DNA from: Sphingobacteriaceae bacterium
GTDB lineage: Bacteria; Bacteroidota; Bacteroidia; UBA7662
Direction: 5' to 3'
DNA length: 64,000 bases
Assembly: GCA_030682795.1 (NCBI GenBank)
Contig: JAUXNJ010000042.1
Location: 1 to 64,000 of the forward strand
The notes under the pieces were generated by a model. That model had not been told where the DNA came from. It worked only from the letters and a program-made list of their open reading frames with translations, and did not search any database. Positions 41,494-51,622 of the stretch are shown piece by piece. Position 1 is the first letter of the stretch, and each line of letters opens with the position of its first letter. Made by a program: the position numbers and the translations under genes.

Positions 41494-43842
41494 TTATTCC
41501 AAAACAAGTCGCTGACTGCTCAAGCCATACGAGCTTTTAACCACCAAATGGTACAATCCCTTGGCTTGCTGCAGTTGTAGTTGGTACTGACCGAGGCTAA
41601 AATCCACTCCCTCTTGCACAAACACCAGTCTACCCAAGGCATCATACACCCGCAGGCCAATGGGTTCGCTATCGGCAACCCCTTGCAATTGAAAAATACC
41701 TGTGCTGGGATTGGGATAAACGCTAAAGGTAGGCCGCTGGTGCAGGTCATTTACCGCCACAGTGGTCATGCGCACCTGAAACCGACTGCTGTCGGCCACC
41801 AAACGCACCCTTTCGTACACCTCGTTCACCGCTGCATCTGCATTTTTTAGGTAGATGAAGCTGTCGGTGGTGGCGCTGTAAAACACCCGCAAAACCGGCC
41901 GTAGATTGGTGGCGCGATTCACCGACTTGGTTAAGTCCTGCACAACTGCCATCACCTTGCCATTGATGTTTTGGTACAAATTCATGGCTGGCGTTCCTGG
42001 TGGTAACAAGCTCATTACGGCGCTAGCCCTTATGCCATGTATTTGAAACGATAGGGCCGTGAGTTGGCAGGCATCGTTGCTCATGCCGATGTCGATAAAG
42101 CGCTGCAGGGTATCGAGGTGCTGAATTTGAATGTTCACCTGCTGCAAGTTGTTGTACAGCCCACGAGGAAAATCACAGCTCGCACCGCCGCCTTGCACCA
42201 AACAATTGCCCAGCAAAACCGCATCCCAGAGGGTTATCAAACTATCTCCGCTGAGGTCCTTGCACTGGCTGTAGCTCAACGTATCGGGCAGCAAGCCCGC
42301 AATGTAGGCCGTATAATCGGCGGTGGTGCGCACACTGTCGCGGTTAAGGTCGCCAGCCAAAGCACTGCCGCCGCAATTGCCCTCACAGTCGAGCTGCGCA
42401 TTGCCATAAGGCGTGCCGTTACAATCGAGGTAAGGCGCGCAATTGGGATATTTAGTGAATTGCTTCCTCCCTAAGCTGTCGGTGAAAATGTTGATGCAAA
42501 CCTGGGCCCAGTTGTTGGCATAATTGGTTTCATAACGGCCTAGGGCATCGGGCGATTGGTCCCAGTTAACTTTGGTGGCCAAAATGTAATCCCCATCAGT
42601 TACATCGGTAATGTCGATCCACTGACAATCGAGGTAGGCCCCGTAAATATCGCCACAACCCGCCGTAATGCCCATATTGCCGCAGCCATATTTGGCGGTG
42701 TAGCCGGCGGGACAAGCCAAATCCATTACGCAAAAGCCGTTTTTGAAGCCAATAGGAATGCGATTGCCTACCGTAGGGTACAGCACATATTCGGCATAAC
42801 CTTCGTAATGCGCGTGGTTGTGGCAATTGTTGGTGTTAAATTGGTTGGGATGGGTGGCCGGACTCCCAATAAAATAATCGGTTTGACCAACATTGCGGAT
42901 GTCGGTATCAAAACGAATCACCGTGCGTTGCCCATAGCCGGTTAAACATTGCTCCGCCACCATGCAGTTCGATGAATTCACCGTACCGCGCACGAGGGAG
43001 TTTTCAAAAACCGACTGTACGAGTTCGAGGTCGGGACCCGGCGGACAAAGCGGATTACCGGCATAATAGCAGGGCCCCACCACCGTAGCCAGGGGGTCGT
43101 AGTTGCAAGCGTTGGAGTCTAAGCAGCCTGCCACCGGTCCCATATAGCTAATGCTAAAAGGAATAGCACCAGTAATATTGCTGCCGCCCACCCGAATCAA
43201 ATAAGTGGTGGCCGTATCTAAATAGGCATGTATGCGGGCCAAATTGCCGCAAGTGCTGTTGGTGTCGTTGTAAAAAAGCGTGCCCATATTGTCGGGCGCC
43301 AAAACCGGCACATTACAATTGTTGTACACCCACAATTTGGTGTTCCAGCTGTTGGGAGCGGTGCAGGTAGAAATCACATAAGCGCCCAAACTATCGGGCT
43401 TAAACCTATACCAGCTGTTGGCAACGGGAGCAGTGTAGCTTCCCACCGTGGTTACAACTGGATTGCTGCAGGCTTGTCCCGTGCTGCAGTTCACAAATTT
43501 AGTTTCAATAAAGCCAAAATTGCCGCCGCTCGCTTGCACCACGCCATTTACCCTTACTTGGTACGAACCATTGCCGTAGGCGCAACAAATGCCATCTCCA
43601 TAACTATCAAAAATGCTAAAAACCAAGCAACTGCCCGTGGGTACGCAAAGGGTATCGCTATTGGCTAAGCCTGTGGCAAGGGTGTCGCCGGCTTGGTTCT
43701 GAAGCAACCAACTGGTTTCACCTGGATAGTTGTCGGGTACAATCCGCACAATTATTTGAGCTTGCGTGGCGGTACAGCCCTGTCCATAGCTGCTAAAACT
43801 GCTAAGCAATAGCGCGCAGCCGAGTAAAAACTTACAATTCAT
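41494..43842 (-). CDS. Lysyl-oxidase-domain protein with dockerin-like and T9SS type A domains
   Basis: 782 residues from ATG 43842; the ATG at 43869 would lie inside the promoter -7 element (43867-43874), so the later start is preferred and gives MNCKFLLGCALLLSSFSSYG. After two N-terminal beta domains, residues 270-460 resemble lysyl oxidase: CHNHAHYEGYAEYVLY is the copper-binding His cluster and NWDQSPDALGRYETNYANN the downstream conserved part. A dockerin-like pair (LNRDSVRTTADYTAYIAGLL, LSGDSLITLWDAVLLG) follows, then VYPNPSTGIFQLQ ... SSQRLVLE, a type A sorting domain. A secreted copper amine oxidase that could cross-link or oxidise lysines outside the cell. Confidence 0.8.
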   Translation of the reverse strand: MNCKFLLGCALLLSSFSSYGQGCTATQAQIIVRIVPDNYPGETSWLLQNQAGDTLATGLANSDTLCVPTGSCLVFSIFDSYGDGICCAYGNGSYQVRVNGVVQASGGNFGFIETKFVNCSTGQACSNPVVTTVGSYTAPVANSWYRFKPDSLGAYVISTCTAPNSWNTKLWVYNNCNVPVLAPDNMGTLFYNDTNSTCGNLARIHAYLDTATTYLIRVGGSNITGAIPFSISYMGPVAGCLDSNACNYDPLATVVGPCYYAGNPLCPPGPDLELVQSVFENSLVRGTVNSSNCMVAEQCLTGYGQRTVIRFDTDIRNVGQTDYFIGSPATHPNQFNTNNCHNHAHYEGYAEYVLYPTVGNRIPIGFKNGFCVMDLACPAGYTAKYGCGNMGITAGCGDIYGAYLDCQWIDITDVTDGDYILATKVNWDQSPDALGRYETNYANNWAQVCINIFTDSLGRKQFTKYPNCAPYLDCNGTPYGNAQLDCEGNCGGSALAGDLNRDSVRTTADYTAYIAGLLPDTLSYSQCKDLSGDSLITLWDAVLLGNCLVQGGGASCDFPRGLYNNLQQVNIQIQHLDTLQRFIDIGMSNDACQLTALSFQIHGIRASAVMSLLPPGTPAMNLYQNINGKVMAVVQDLTKSVNRATNLRPVLRVFYSATTDSFIYLKNADAAVNEVYERVRLVADSSRFQVRMTTVAVNDLHQRPTFSVYPNPSTGIFQLQGVADSEPIGLRVYDALGRLVFVQEGVDFSLGQYQLQLQQAKGLYHLVVKSSYGLSSQRLVLE

Positions 43843-43866
43843 ACAATACCAGGTAAATAGGTATTT

Positions 43867-43874
43867 CAAATGTA
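43867..43874 (-). promoter_or_regulatory. -7 promoter element of the lysyl-oxidase gene
   Basis: TACATTTG on the minus strand is an exact TAnnTTTG. It overlaps the upstream candidate start codon at 43869 and so argues for translation from 43842. A clear -33 element was not seen. Confidence 0.45.
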
Positions 43875-43899: not shown

Positions 43900-45903
43900 T
43901 TAATACTTGGCTGAGCTGCGGCCGTAAAACCGATGCATCATCACAATGTGCGGCGCGCTTACTGCCGCCAAAAACACAAAAAAGGCAGGAATCCAGCCTT
44001 CAAACGATAAATCAAAAGTGGCAGCGGCAATGCCTAAGCCTATAAAAAGCAACCAGGCCGCGGTAGAAAAGGGAAGGGCTTTTTTAAACAAATCGGCATG
44101 ACTCATGCCTAAACCTTGTTGCAGGTGCCGCCAGCCTCGCCAGCTATGCAGACCAATAAAATAGAAGCCAAAGGCCGGTAGAAGGGGGAGCAGCGCACCG
44201 CCCAAGACTACCAAAGCGGTTACACCATAGCCGATGCGATGCTTTTTAGGTAAAAAAACGGGAAGCAACAACAGCAGCATCCCCAAAAATAAAGCCGCTG
44301 TAGGTCCCTGCGGCACCATCAAGCCGCTGCCGAGTGCGCTTATGTGCTGCTGGAGCTCGGTGGGATGACTGAGCAGGATGAAGCCCAAGGCCGTCACACC
44401 ATAGGTAATGGCCCACCAAGGCTGTTTTTGGCCCCATACCTTGGCATCGGTTTGGCCGAAATGCCAGGCGCTATAACCAATAAAGCCAAGCAAAGCCAAG
44501 GTTGGCCACTGCCACCACAGCAGCACCACAGCAAGCATAATGGCTACATATTTGCCCACAAAAAGAGGAAGAGCGCTGTTTTTGAAATCCAATAAATGGT
44601 CTACCGCCCCATGTGGAATGCCCGGAAACAACAAGCCAATCCCTAATAAAACGGGTAGCACAACCGCATTGGCAGCTGGCCAAAGCTGCTGCAGCAGCAC
44701 ACAAAGCAGTAAAAGCAGCAATACGAGTCCGTCGGCACCGATGTATTTCCGTCCCACCGCCGCTAAAAAAGTAGGTACAGGCAAGGCGGCTAAGATGGGG
44801 AGCTCTTGATTTAGACTGCTTTGTTCATCTAAAAAGCGAAACACCTGCGGCAGGGGAACTTTGTTGAATAGCGCTAAAAAAATGCCTTTTCCTTTCGCGG
44901 GATGGCGTTTTAAAATATCAAGGAGCAAGCCATCATAAAAACTGTGGCGAGGAGGGTGGTAAGGCCTGGGCAAAGGACCAGCTACACGCATGGCCATGCT
45001 AATGGCCTCGGCATGCGCCCACATTTGCTTAAAGGCATAACCAGTGCTGGCCTTCACGGCACCAGCAGCCGTGCCAATGGCCACGTGGCGTTGGTTGGCA
45101 GGATGGAAGGGGGCGGCGGGATTGAGCTGCATTTGCATGGGTATGCGGCCGCCTTCCAGCTCCAGCATGTTAAAGGCACCAAAGCGCTCCCGGGCCCAGG
45201 GCTCCAGCAAGGCATAGGCCTCATCACGGTCTAAAATGCTGCCATCGAAGCGGGTGAGCTCCACCAAGCCTTCGGTTTCGCTTACCGGAAGCACGTAAAC
45301 AAACTGCGTGCTGCCCTGCTGGTCTACCTCAAAATTCATCAGCTCCATGCTGCCTGGCGCAAAAGCCGCTTGCTCCAGCCGGATGCGCATGCCGTAAAAC
45401 GACTGCCACAGTCCGTCCTTTGCAAAGGCATCGCTGGGTAAGCGACTATCGAAAACAAGTTTGGCGGTAAACTGCCCCGCAGCACTATCGATGGCACAGG
45501 CATCGGTTGTTTCATGCACCTCGCTTACTGCGGCCTGCACCCAATTGAGCTGCGGGTATTGCGGCAAAAGGGCCTGCACGGCTGCATACAGCGCGCTGCT
45601 CCGAATTTGATAATAACGGTAGGGGGCTAAATCCTGCTGTTTGCCAGCCACCAAAGCAGTTCCCCAACTGCTGCCAATCAAATTGCCAAAGGCCGCTAAA
45701 ATGCTGTCGTCGGCCTTCGCCCAAAAGCACCAGGTGCGGTCGTTAAGCTTTTTTTCGGCCGGCTCCAGCACCAACACCCGTTTTTGCGCCAAAATCCCCG
45801 CTTCATGCCAGGCTTGTAGCAAGCACATGCCAGCACCACCAGCGCCAATCAAGGCCAAATCGTAGTGATTTGCAGAAGAGGGAGCAACAGGCGCGACCAA
45901 CAT
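43900..45903 (-). CDS. crtY-blh: Fusion of lycopene beta-cyclase (CrtY) and beta-carotene 15,15'-dioxygenase (Blh/Brp)
   Basis: 667 residues. Residues 12-390 are a CrtY-type flavoprotein cyclase: the dinucleotide loop IGAGGAGMCLLQAW, LNDRTWCFW, YGMRIRLEQAAF, GTAAGAVKASTGYAFKQMW and FRFLDEQSS are all family landmarks. From about 395 a membrane domain of the Brp/Blh family begins, with its iron-ligand histidines in GIPHGAVDHLL, SAWHFGQTD, IGLHSWRGWRHL and SAPHIVMMHRF. CrtY makes beta-carotene from lycopene and Blh splits it into two retinals. No stop or frame change lies between the halves, so this is a true fusion. Retinal supply implies a rhodopsin gene outside the window. Diverges from the DUF2911 gene. 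Confidence 0.88.
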   Translation of the reverse strand: MLVAPVAPSSANHYDLALIGAGGAGMCLLQAWHEAGILAQKRVLVLEPAEKKLNDRTWCFWAKADDSILAAFGNLIGSSWGTALVAGKQQDLAPYRYYQIRSSALYAAVQALLPQYPQLNWVQAAVSEVHETTDACAIDSAAGQFTAKLVFDSRLPSDAFAKDGLWQSFYGMRIRLEQAAFAPGSMELMNFEVDQQGSTQFVYVLPVSETEGLVELTRFDGSILDRDEAYALLEPWARERFGAFNMLELEGGRIPMQMQLNPAAPFHPANQRHVAIGTAAGAVKASTGYAFKQMWAHAEAISMAMRVAGPLPRPYHPPRHSFYDGLLLDILKRHPAKGKGIFLALFNKVPLPQVFRFLDEQSSLNQELPILAALPVPTFLAAVGRKYIGADGLVLLLLLLCVLLQQLWPAANAVVLPVLLGIGLLFPGIPHGAVDHLLDFKNSALPLFVGKYVAIMLAVVLLWWQWPTLALLGFIGYSAWHFGQTDAKVWGQKQPWWAITYGVTALGFILLSHPTELQQHISALGSGLMVPQGPTAALFLGMLLLLLPVFLPKKHRIGYGVTALVVLGGALLPLLPAFGFYFIGLHSWRGWRHLQQGLGMSHADLFKKALPFSTAAWLLFIGLGIAAATFDLSFEGWIPAFFVFLAAVSAPHIVMMHRFYGRSSAKY

Positions 45904-46888: not shown

Positions 46889-49504
46889 TTACAAGCCCGC
46901 TTCTTTATCTAGATAACTTTGTACTACCTGGATGGCGTTGTCAATCACATCGCTCAAAGCGGTAATGAAGGTGCCCGCCTGGGCCATGTTCATGGCGTGC
47001 TTCAGGGCTTCCACCTCTTTGGGCACTACTTCGTATTTAAGGTCTTTGTCTACCTCCTGAATGCCGGCAATCAGTAAATCAATGATCTCCTGCTCGGTAC
47101 GGCCCCGCAAGTGCTTTTCTTGGCGGATGATGATGTGGTCGAACATACGCGCCGCAATTTTGCCGCATTCTTTGATGTCTTCATCACGCCGGTCGCCAGT
47201 GCCGGCAATGATGCCGATTTTTAAAGGCGATTCGATATTACCCATGAGCTCCTCAATGGCCAGATAACCGGCTGCATTGTGCGCAAAGTCAATCATCACC
47301 CGGTATTCTTTGAACTCAAAAATGTTCATGCGCCCAGGGGTGAGGGCCGCAGAAGGAATGAAGGTTTCGAGCGAAAGTTTGATGTTTTCGGTCCTGAAGC
47401 CCTGCAAATAGCCCGCTAATGCCGCCGCCAACACGTTTTCAATCATAAAACGCGCTTTGCCAGCCAGGGTAATCGGAATATGAGTCACTTTTTCAATCCT
47501 GATCTTCCAGTCGCCTTTTTTGATGGTGATGAAGCCGTTTTCGAAAATGGCTGCAATGCCACCTTTTTTGCAGTGGGCCTTCACCACAGGATTGTTTTCA
47601 TCCATGCTGAAGTAAGCCACATTGCATTTTAAGTCCTCGGCAATTTTCACGCACCAGCCATTGTCGGCATTCATCACGGCCCATCCTTCGCGCTTCACGC
47701 TTTTTACCACCACCGATTTTACGCGGGCGAGGTCTTCGAGGGTATCAATGTCGTTCAATCCCAAATGATCCTCGGCGATGTTGGTGAGCACGGCTATGTC
47801 GCACCTACTAAAGCCCAATCCCGAGCGCAAAATGCCGCCACGGGCAGTTTCGAGCACGGCAAATTCTACCGTAGGGTCTTTCAAAATGAACTCCGCACTC
47901 AACGGTCCGGTGGTATCACCTTTGTCGAGCATGTGGTTTTGCACATAAATGCCATCCGAAGTGGTAAAGCCTACCCGATAACCCGCATTTTTTACCATAT
48001 GGGCAATCAAGCGGGTGGTGGTGGTTTTACCATTGGTACCTGTAATGGCAATGATCGGAATGCGCGATGGCTTGCCCGGAGGGTACAACATATCAATTAC
48101 CGGTGCAGCCACATTGCGCGGCAATCCTTCGGCCGGAGCCAGGTGCATGCGGAAGCCAGGAGCAGCATTCACCTCTAAAATGGCCCCGCCGCTCTCTTTC
48201 AAGGGCTGGGTAAGATTGGGCGCCATGATGTCGATGCCACACACATCCAAGCCAATGATGCGGGCCACCCGCTCGCACAAAAACACGTTTTCGGGGTGCA
48301 TCATTTCGGTTACATCCACGCTGGTACCGCCGGTGCTGAGGTTGGCAGTGCTCTTCAGGTAGATGGTGTCGCCTTTTTTGGGGATGGATTGCAGGGTATA
48401 GCCGCGTTTTTCGAGCAAATCGAGACTGTCGCGGTCGATTAAAATCTCCGTCAATACGTTTTCGTGACCGTAACCTCTCCGTGGATCGAGGTTTTCTTTG
48501 GCAATGAGCTGTTCGATGGTGCTTTCGCCATCGCCTTTTACATGCGCAGGCACCCGCTGGGCCGCGGCAATTACCTGGTTGTTAATCACCAGCACCCTAA
48601 AATCGAAGCCGGTAATAAACTTCTCCACAATTACTTTGCGCGAATACTGCTGGGCATGGGCGAGTCCCGCCACCGCCGTTTCACGGTCTTTGACGTTGAT
48701 ACTCGCACCCTTGCCATGGTTGCCATCTAAAGGCTTTAGCACCATGGGATAGCCAATGCGGGCAATGGCAGCATCTAAATCTTCCTCATCTACACAGATA
48801 TCGCCCTTGGGTACCGGGATGTTGGCGTCGTCGAGCATTTTTTTGGTGAGCTCTTTGTTGCAGGCGATGTCTACGGCAATGCTGCTGGTATTTTGGGTGA
48901 TGGTGGCCTGAAAACGCACCTGATTTACACCATAACCCAGCTGAATGAGCGAATTGGTGCCCATGCGAATCCAGGGGATGTCGCGGGCCACAGCCTCGTC
49001 TACGAGAGAGCCGGTGCTCGGACCCAAACGCACGCGTTCGCGAATTTCACGCATTTTTTGGATGTCTTTTTCAAGGTCGTAATCGGTGCCCGCAATCAAA
49101 GCCTCGGCAATGGCCACCGAAGCTTCGGCGGCGTACAAGCCCACTTGCTCTTCTACATAGCTGAAAACCACGTTGTAGATGCCCGGAGTACGGGTTTCGC
49201 GGGTTCTGCCAAAGCCGGTATCCATGCCCGCCAGGGTCTGAATTTCAAGGGCAATGTGCTCAATTACATGGCCCATCCAGGTGCCCCGCTCAATGCGGTA
49301 AAAAAAGCCGCCGGGCGTGCCTTCTGAGCAACGGTGCTCAAACATGCTCGGGAACATGGCCTCGATGCGCTGGCGGAAACCAGGGATTTTATTGGTGGGC
49401 TGCTGCTCAAGTTCTTCTAAATCGAGCCGCATTTGAATGAGCTTTTTGCGTTGGATGCTCCAGATATTGGGGCCGCGAAGGGCCTGTATTTTGAGGATTT
49501 TCAT
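46889..49504 (-). CDS. cphA: Cyanophycin synthetase
   Basis: 871 residues from ATG 49504 (MKILKIQALRGPNIWS, the family start; an upstream ATG adds eleven residues). It builds cyanophycin, a poly-Asp backbone with Arg side chains, using ATP. The three expected parts are present: an N-terminal domain with GTWMGHVIEHIALEIQ, an ATP-grasp domain (PMVLKPLDGNHGKGAS, GAILEVNAAPGFRMH) and a Mur-ligase-like domain with ITGTNGKTTTTRLIAH (about 490) and IDFAHNAAGY. Length and motifs match typical CphA. It is divergent from cphB across a 171-base gap, which allows shared control. Confidence 0.95.
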   Translation of the reverse strand: MKILKIQALRGPNIWSIQRKKLIQMRLDLEELEQQPTNKIPGFRQRIEAMFPSMFEHRCSEGTPGGFFYRIERGTWMGHVIEHIALEIQTLAGMDTGFGRTRETRTPGIYNVVFSYVEEQVGLYAAEASVAIAEALIAGTDYDLEKDIQKMREIRERVRLGPSTGSLVDEAVARDIPWIRMGTNSLIQLGYGVNQVRFQATITQNTSSIAVDIACNKELTKKMLDDANIPVPKGDICVDEEDLDAAIARIGYPMVLKPLDGNHGKGASINVKDRETAVAGLAHAQQYSRKVIVEKFITGFDFRVLVINNQVIAAAQRVPAHVKGDGESTIEQLIAKENLDPRRGYGHENVLTEILIDRDSLDLLEKRGYTLQSIPKKGDTIYLKSTANLSTGGTSVDVTEMMHPENVFLCERVARIIGLDVCGIDIMAPNLTQPLKESGGAILEVNAAPGFRMHLAPAEGLPRNVAAPVIDMLYPPGKPSRIPIIAITGTNGKTTTTRLIAHMVKNAGYRVGFTTSDGIYVQNHMLDKGDTTGPLSAEFILKDPTVEFAVLETARGGILRSGLGFSRCDIAVLTNIAEDHLGLNDIDTLEDLARVKSVVVKSVKREGWAVMNADNGWCVKIAEDLKCNVAYFSMDENNPVVKAHCKKGGIAAIFENGFITIKKGDWKIRIEKVTHIPITLAGKARFMIENVLAAALAGYLQGFRTENIKLSLETFIPSAALTPGRMNIFEFKEYRVMIDFAHNAAGYLAIEELMGNIESPLKIGIIAGTGDRRDEDIKECGKIAARMFDHIIIRQEKHLRGRTEQEIIDLLIAGIQEVDKDLKYEVVPKEVEALKHAMNMAQAGTFITALSDVIDNAIQVVQSYLDKEAGL

Positions 49505-49675
49505 AGGAAAATGTTCGTGCGTTTTGACTAATCTCAAATAAAGCTAATTAATCGCACAAAAACCAAATATGGGAGGGGCTTTTCGAAAGAAAGGGGACGA
49601 TTTGTGCAAAAAATGAGGTTGGGCTTGTGCTAAAATTGCCCTATTATTACGGCACTTTTAATTGAAAGTTACCTG

Positions 49676-50560
49676 ATGATACCAAATGGGAAGCTCATTG
49701 TAATTGGCGGTGCCGTGGATACGGGCAGTTTTACAGAGAAGAATTATAAAGAAGACATCCGCAATAACCTCAATTTTTTTGAGGAAGGCATTCTCAAAAC
49801 CATCCTCAACGAGGCGGCACACGGCCTAAATGCCCGCATCGAAATCATTCCCACCGCCTCTCAAATTCCGGTAGAAGTAGGAGCGGAGTATGTCAAGGCT
49901 TTTTCTTTTCTCGATGCGCACAATACCGGGGTGCTGCACATCCACACCCGCGAAGAGGCCAACGATCCTGAAACCTGCGCCCGTTTGGAGGCTGCCGATG
50001 CAGTGGTATTTACGGGTGGTGATCAATTGCGATTGACTTCGATCCTTGGGGGAACCAACTTCCACCATTTATTACTCAAAAAATACCGCGAAACACCCTT
50101 TGTTTTGGCAGGCACCTCGGCCGGCGCCGCAGCCTGTTCCAACAATATGATTTACCAAGGTTCGGCCAGCGAAGCCTTGTTAAAAGGAGAGGTGAAAATT
50201 ACCAGCGGACTGGGCCTCATCAACGACGTAATCATCGATACCCACTTTGTGCAAAGGGGCCGCATTGGTCGCCTCTTCCAAGCCGTAGTGAGTAATCCCA
50301 TGGCCTTGGGCATTGGCTTAGGCGAGGATACGGGTTTGCTTATTAAAAATGGATCTGAAATGATTGCCGTGGGTTCTGGTTTGGTTATTTTGGTAGATGG
50401 CCGGGCGGTCAAAGACACGAACATCACCGATGTGCCCCTCGGCGCGCCTATTTCTATCAGTAATTTGGTGGTGCATGTAATGAGCAAAGACGATCATTAC
50501 AACCTGCAAACGCACCAAATGGTGATCCACAAAGAGCGCCAGAGTGCCGACGTAGAATAA
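49676..50560 (+). CDS. cphB: Cyanophycinase
   Basis: 294 residues, serine exopeptidase that releases beta-Asp-Arg dipeptides from cyanophycin. The nucleophile elbow is GTSAGAAA with Ser near residue 149; GGAVDTGSF at the N-terminus, FTGGDQLRL and IDTHFVQRGRIGRL are family-conserved. There is no signal peptide, so it is an intracellular CphB rather than the secreted CphE kind. Followed by a terminator and the isoaspartyl peptidase gene. Confidence 0.95.
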   Translation: MIPNGKLIVIGGAVDTGSFTEKNYKEDIRNNLNFFEEGILKTILNEAAHGLNARIEIIPTASQIPVEVGAEYVKAFSFLDAHNTGVLHIHTREEANDPETCARLEAADAVVFTGGDQLRLTSILGGTNFHHLLLKKYRETPFVLAGTSAGAAACSNNMIYQGSASEALLKGEVKITSGLGLINDVIIDTHFVQRGRIGRLFQAVVSNPMALGIGLGEDTGLLIKNGSEMIAVGSGLVILVDGRAVKDTNITDVPLGAPISISNLVVHVMSKDDHYNLQTHQMVIHKERQSADVE

Positions 50561-50574
50561 AACCGATCAAATCT

Positions 50575-50608
50575 AAAAGCCATCCTCCAAAAGAGAGATG
50601 GCTTTTTT
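50575..50608 (+). terminator. Rho-independent terminator after cphB
   Basis: aaaagccatc (50575-50584) pairs with gatggctttt (50598-50607), followed by T residues. It separates cphB from the isoaspartyl peptidase gene, so that gene probably has its own promoter. Confidence 0.75.
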
Positions 50609-50770
50609 AGGTAAAAGCTTTTGATGTAAGGGGATGTGCTTTGAATGCGAATCAAAGCGTTAGCATGGATTGGAATAAAGCGATGGCCTAATTTATTTGA
50701 ATTTAATTTTCAACTTAATTTTATCTCCAACCTCATTTATATTCCTCAAATTTGCGCTTCAACATTCATC

Positions 50771-51622
50771 ATGACCCAACCCAAGCTCATCATTCACGGA
50801 GGATTTTTTAGCGAATCGCATACCGATGCCGCTACCAAATTGGCCAAGCAGCAAGCCATGGCCAGCATTGCCAAAATGGCCTTTGAATATTTACAGGCAC
50901 ATACGGCCCTCGAAACCGTGATTTTTGCAAATGAGTTGTTGGAAAACGATCCGCTTTTTAATGCAGGTACGGGTTCTCAAATCCAAAGCGATGGCATTGT
51001 GCGCATGAGCGCCAGCATCATGGATGGCATCAGCCAGCGCTTCAGTGGCGTGATTAACATCGAAAACGTGCAAAACCCCATTCGTGTGGCCGAAAAGCTG
51101 CTAGGCTACGACGATCGGGTGTTGGGAGGTACCGGGGCTTCAGCTTTTGCCCGCCGCTCTGGCTTTACCCATTACGACCCACGTACCGAACAACGTAAAG
51201 CCGAATACGAAGCCAAAGTGGCCTCAGCAGGCACAGGAACGGTAGGTTGCGTGGCCCTGGATGCCACCGGCGCCCTGGCTGCAGCTACTTCAACCGGTGG
51301 CAAAGGCTTCGAAATGGTAGGCCGCATCTCCGATTCCGCAACCGTAGCCGGTAATTATGCCAATGCCAGCTGCGGGGTTTCCTGCACAGGGGTTGGTGAA
51401 GACATTGTAAGCGCCGCCCTGGCCACTAAAATAGTTACCCGCGTTACCGATGGCATGACACTGTCATCCGCTTTCCAAAAATCCTTCAACGAGCTCAAAG
51501 CCATCGACGGATTTGCAGGCGCTATCGGCATCAGCGCGTCGGGCGAACTTTTTCACCTCGATTCCCACCCGAGCATGGTGTATGCCTGGACCGACGGAGA
51601 AAAACTGGAGTTTTTTAAGTAG
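50771..51622 (+). CDS. iaaA: Isoaspartyl peptidase / plant-type L-asparaginase
   Basis: 283 residues from ATG 50771 (MTQPKLIIHGG); the longer frame to 50645 has no family match. An Ntn-hydrolase that cleaves beta-aspartyl peptides. Thr157 in TGTVGCVALD is the predicted self-cleavage site and nucleophile; GRISDSATVAGNYAN and SCTGVGEDIV are the substrate loops. Directly after cphB, it fits the last step of cyanophycin use, splitting beta-Asp-Arg into Asp and Arg. Confidence 0.92.
   Translation: MTQPKLIIHGGFFSESHTDAATKLAKQQAMASIAKMAFEYLQAHTALETVIFANELLENDPLFNAGTGSQIQSDGIVRMSASIMDGISQRFSGVINIENVQNPIRVAEKLLGYDDRVLGGTGASAFARRSGFTHYDPRTEQRKAEYEAKVASAGTGTVGCVALDATGALAAATSTGGKGFEMVGRISDSATVAGNYANASCGVSCTGVGEDIVSAALATKIVTRVTDGMTLSSAFQKSFNELKAIDGFAGAIGISASGELFHLDSHPSMVYAWTDGEKLEFFK

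Follow-up and report, generated by a model that had tools for sequence, protein, structure and literature searches.

The window (the whole stretch of 64,000 nucleotides analyzed here) holds on its minus strand an open reading frame of 667 amino acids, crtY::blh (43900-45903), which runs from an ATG at 45903 to its stop codon without any internal stop; on the plus strand of the same interval, a comparable open frame was not found. The N-terminal half of the product (residues 15-377; 44773-45861, minus strand) is a CrtY-type lycopene cyclase domain with an FAD-binding GAGGAG motif near the N-terminus. It matched PF05834 over profile positions 1-373 of 380 (E 6e-41; 141 bits vs a curated Pfam cut-off of 23.4). 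The C-terminal half (residues 424-658; 43930-44634, minus strand) is a Brp/Blh β-carotene dioxygenase domain according to both Pfam (PF15461; E 4e-31; 109 bits vs a curated cut-off of 28) and NCBIfam (TIGR03753; 127.6 bits vs a cut-off of 95.25), and the same architecture is common to 36 genomes. The original prediction of an in-frame cyclase-dioxygenase fusion was thus correct in frame, extent, and domain order, with the minus strand as the coding strand, and the polypeptide indeed unites the enzymes of two successive steps toward retinal (PF05834 and PF15461).

Further Pfam families were not matched at E values up to 1; as the cyclase belongs to PF05834 and no other Pfam family was hit, the protein does not qualify as carrying a heterodimer-type CrtYc/d cyclase domain. 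The CrtY equivalog models of NCBIfam scored below their cut-offs (TIGR01789, 67.5 vs 215.2 bits; TIGR01790, 97.9 vs 209.5 bits), as they did for the separate CrtY encoded in the same genome, so neither model seems to extend to this group. The acidic motif of the cyclase reads LVELT, its E215 aligning with the glutamate of LIEDT in Pantoea CrtY, and E215, T217, and R218 are invariant across all 36 fusions. A search of solved structures gave no sequence match, and a structure prediction from a two-sequence alignment was discarded (pLDDT 36).

The junction and its neighborhood

Between the two domains lies a junction of residues 378-423 (44635-44772, minus strand), delimited by the alignment of the 36 fusions and by hydropathy, which peaks at residues 402 and 420. 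A linker domain is absent from this alignment; the C-terminal tail of the cyclase leads directly to the first hydrophobic segment of Blh. Mean identity is 20% at the junction, compared with 39% in either domain. Between the two closest fusions, dN/dS was 0.11 in the cyclase, 0.08 in Blh, and 0.07-0.09 at the junction, and indels were confined to the termini; judged between close relatives, the junction is under purifying selection. It contains no ATG codon, only GTG and TTG codons without a clear ribosome site. An internal start was rejected in view of this lack of ATG, the fusions in other genomes, and dN/dS near 0.1, and the latter two also counter the idea of a pseudogene.

Immediately after the fusion gene, in the same orientation, comes a gene (41494-43869, minus strand) whose product, of secreted type, combines a lysyl oxidase domain (PF01186) with a type IX sorting tail. 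Another part of the window (46889-51622) contains a gene similar to cyanophycin synthetase (minus strand), next to it a gene for a peptidase of the S51 cyanophycinase kind and, by eye, an ORF resembling isoaspartyl peptidase/asparaginase; this is likely a cluster for synthesis and breakdown of a storage polymer.

Distribution and origin of the fusion

Complete fusions from 36 Bacteroidota genomes, belonging to at least two classes, could be aligned. A sister genome of the window's family encodes the same uninterrupted fusion (665 aa; 83% identity; locus L010, MAG contig CAMCHJ010000006.1; L037), which was also the only locus matched in a contig scan for the fusion. Two further full-length fusions in the family comprise 702 and 703 aa (35-36% identity), and, beyond the sister genome, 32 more aligned genomes have the fusion at 31-36% identity; alignments therefore span the junction in other genomes at 31-83% identity, as had been proposed as a check. 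Others in the window's family are truncated where the contig stops, and one draft (G010) has the gene split by a frameshift. That two real genes had been joined by an assembly or frameshift artefact, the read-level error named at the outset as grounds for refutation, is excluded for practical purposes by the presence of the same fusion in other assemblies, the MAG contig included; the frameshift in the G010 draft runs the opposite way and splits the gene.

When 395 genomes of the class Bacteroidia were searched with PF15461, 71 exceeded the cut-off, and the frames found fell into two main size classes (∼250-355 and ∼650-720 aa); all long frames fetched from this search were CrtY-Blh fusions. 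A complete fusion was present in 32 of the 71 Blh-bearing genomes and a cut or frameshifted one in five more, shares that are somewhat inflated because the sample is rich in the window's own family. The assertion that the two enzymes are normally encoded by separate genes is therefore only half right in Bacteroidia. Three more fusions (family code f89) lie outside the class, inside the phylum. Elsewhere in the phylum, a BCD match was located within a 958-aa open frame (L096/L136, genome G585), which may be another type of fusion or simply a long frame. Among the plasmid matches listed, only the cyclase half was hit. Three loci on viral contigs matched over only 30-33 residues, were GC-rich, and had no Blh gene; they were judged to be chance matches.

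In several other Bacteroidota, the gene immediately preceding blh, in the same orientation, is an unfused crtY, and in many cases the two overlap by a few bases. The cyclase tree contains a branch (support 99) that has on one side the solo CrtY, i.e., those not linked to blh, including the second, solo CrtY of the window genome (contig C43), which belongs to a different clade from the fused one; on the other side are the fused and paired CrtY, three of the paired adjoining the fused. In the best tree found, the fused CrtY form one clade (lnL 9.7 above the free search; AU p 0.74); the window's own cyclase domain may sit at the base. The fused Blh likewise form one group (support 97), which contains a single separate Blh. 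Because the fused cyclases and the fused dioxygenases each form one group, one old fusion of adjacent crtY and blh genes appears likely from these trees, and the simplest reading is that it probably occurred once and was then inherited, probably with some transfer between lineages. The separate Blh inside the fused clade (L059:1480-2325, genome G237), near which no cyclase remnant was found, is apparently, and most simply, the result of a later separation from the fusion.

The Blh histidines and the link to rhodopsin

The Blh half was compared with the stand-alone Blh of the uncultured marine bacterium 66A03, a member of the same Brp/Blh family, using what we take to be its sequence; its histidines at residues 21, 78, 188, and 192 agree with the published numbering. 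In that enzyme, H21, H78, H188, and H192 were reported to be essential, and alanine in place of H21, H78, or H188 leaves less than 5% activity (PMC9227343). Three of the four are kept in the fusion protein: H431 (44611-44613, minus strand) corresponds to H21, H481 (44461-44463, minus strand) to H78, and H586 (44146-44148, minus strand) to H188. These three are invariant in all 83 aligned sequences (36 fused and 47 unfused Blh), as is H652 of the C-terminal PH motif (43948-43950, minus strand), also shared with 66A03. The place of H192, however, is taken by G590 (44134-44136, minus strand), with Gly, Ser, or Ala at this position in all 36 fusions. Thus, the original statement that all expected histidine motifs are present holds for three of the four residues tested by mutagenesis, and for the further invariant H652, but fails at H192. 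Loss of essential histidines, which had been named as an observation that would speak against the prediction, was accordingly found at one of four positions, where it does not indicate decay but is a trait of the whole class: histidine is never found there in the aligned unfused Blh of Bacteroidia either, so H192 cannot be a defining feature of Blh in this class. In 22 unfused Blh of the same phylum from outside the class, the position is histidine, the second of an HxxxH motif.

Of the 37 sampled Bacteroidia genomes in which the fusion is present, whole or as a fragment, 36 carry a rhodopsin, vs 50 of the 358 others (Fisher p 4e-26, which is only indicative as the genomes are related); the sole exception is a draft of 84% completeness in 320 contigs. 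At 19 of 36 fusion loci, the rhodopsin gene has the same orientation as the fusion and is no more than 160 bases away, and at one more the distance is 495 bases (20 of 36 within 500). It is also co-oriented, at ∼3 kb, in one further locus and divergent, at 311 bases, in one other. Altogether, 68 of the 71 Blh-bearing genomes of the class carry rhodopsin. Conversely, 18 genomes of the class sample had rhodopsin over the cut-off and no Blh that could be found (e.g., G014, G017, and G019); a novel or scavenged source of retinal, or incomplete assemblies, may possibly account for these.

The window genome itself encodes a rhodopsin (contig C4) that carries D-T-E, the residues typical of proton pumps. 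Its contig C20 carries crtB, crtI (CrtID model over the cut-off), a crtD-like desaturase gene just under the cut-off, and acyltransferase, cruG-like, and cruF-like genes. Another BCD, or a carotenoid oxygenase of the RPE65 type, was not found in this genome. Hence, of the genes suggested for inspection, rhodopsin, crtI, crtB, and a stand-alone crtY were present, and only another blh was not found, a context that fits a role in retinal supply. Rhodopsin, carotenoid cluster, and fusion are each located on different contigs, so that co-expression is not visible in this genome. Three members of the window's family (G016, G003, and G001) lack both rhodopsin and Blh and have kept the solo CrtY, which supports separate roles of the two cyclases.

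A predicted route from lycopene to retinal

Retinal is the light-absorbing part of rhodopsin, and its formation requires β-carotene with both ends cyclized. Judged by family membership, the fusion protein would possess both enzyme activities, and its most likely function is that of a lycopene-to-retinal enzyme serving rhodopsin. The FAD-dependent N-terminal CrtY domain, at the face of the membrane, would cyclize both ends of lycopene, yielding β-carotene, which the membrane-embedded Blh domain would then cleave at the 15,15′ bond into two molecules of retinal; for the latter step, it is the link to rhodopsin that points to retinal as the product. The genes crtY and blh, adjacent and often overlapping in the rhodopsin cluster, would have been joined in frame, probably once, and the fusion then maintained by purifying selection in many Bacteroidota. 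The solo CrtY most likely serves another carotenoid, encoded by the crtI, crtD, cruF-like, and cruG-like genes elsewhere. The gene set on contig C20 suggests a carotenoid left open at one end, where it would be hydroxylated and glycosylated; a single ring would suffice for such a product, and the two cyclases may thus divide the labor. Taken together, a bifunctional cyclase-dioxygenase that supplies retinal to rhodopsin, arose once, and is kept by selection, next to a second CrtY for another carotenoid, is the reading in which we have high confidence.

A Blh half that is altered or inactive, so that the protein would be a membrane-anchored cyclase or would cleave another bond, is improbable. 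The replacement of H192 by G590 is what speaks for it, given that this residue is essential in the 66A03 enzyme (PMC9227343), but its equivalent is missing from every aligned Blh of the class, fused or unfused, and the four other histidines are invariant. The low dN/dS of the Blh half, the rhodopsin in nearly all Blh-bearing genomes of the class, and the failure to find another of the listed retinal sources in the window genome likewise argue for a functional dioxygenase.

The benefit of the fusion is a separate matter from its two activities. It is plausible that β-carotene is handed over directly between the active sites, whose nearness may be where the gain lies, and that it would thereby be committed to retinal. 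About evenly balanced against any such channeling is the alternative that the fusion does no more than hold two independent enzymes at a 1:1 ratio and in a joint place in the membrane, with β-carotene leaving freely, and so operates as the unfused neighboring pair does. This would accord with the adjacent, often overlapping unfused pairs, which occur in rhodopsin-carrying genomes too, and with the one Blh of the fused clade that is separate again. Moreover, another PF05834 cyclase was not found in 27 of the 32 fusion genomes; there, leakage of β-carotene to other carotenoids is possible, and a purely retinal-dedicated role is thus not general. On the other hand, that the fusion is retained across many families, and that close relatives have conserved the junction, suggests some advantage of linkage. 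The farthest-reaching proposal, a widespread and undescribed enzyme, devoid of an "essential" histidine, that is dedicated to handing over β-carotene and so, in a cell with two lycopene cyclases of different clades, keeps the retinal line apart from the membrane-carotenoid line, is rather unlikely in our view, in contrast to the bifunctional cyclase-dioxygenase for rhodopsin retinal as such.

The fusion is another form of a module that is already known, the rhodopsin-linked crtY-blh pair, and its function is easily predicted. Proteorhodopsin and xanthorhodopsin operons contain the same two enzyme families, for the same pathway steps and in the same gene order beside rhodopsin (PMC10284914; PMC13043013), but with separate crtY and blh genes instead of one open reading frame. 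The only report of a cyclase-Blh junction found in the open-access literature concerns the protist Thecamonas trahens, in which a quadrifunctional CrtI-CrtB-CrtYcd-Blh protein also ends in a Blh domain that is immediately preceded by a lycopene cyclase (PMC10016063). That protein, however, is eukaryotic, has four domains, and contains a CrtYc/d cyclase whose origin is independent of the FAD-binding CrtY described here; the two fusions are independent. Verrucomicrobial proteorhodopsin operons encode a CrtIB fusion, reported in 2023 (PMC10284914), which is likewise a natural fusion of two consecutive retinal-pathway enzymes in a bacterial rhodopsin cluster but joins other steps (CrtI and CrtB); the same paper names CrtBY and CrtIBY as previously characterized natural fusions and does not mention CrtY-Blh. 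As the open-access literature yielded no account of CrtY and Blh fused in a bacterium, the fusion is apparently undescribed, although databases very probably already contain the PF05834-PF15461 architecture, uncommented.

Where consecutive carotenoid enzymes are naturally fused, the fusions serve as arguments for substrate hand-over and as building blocks in vitamin A production. With a compact lycopene-to-retinal protein such as the one predicted here for many rhodopsin-bearing Bacteroidota, a single gene would suffice to test whether the link between cyclase and dioxygenase favors retinal over free carotenoid. The class-wide absence of the "essential" H192 bears on the question of which histidines truly bind the metal in this family. 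For the hosts of rhodopsin in Bacteroidota, a survey that looks for a stand-alone blh of ∼300 aa may wrongly score genomes with the fusion as being devoid of retinal synthesis, and naming the long protein by its N-terminal half only ("lycopene cyclase") may lead to the same misannotation.
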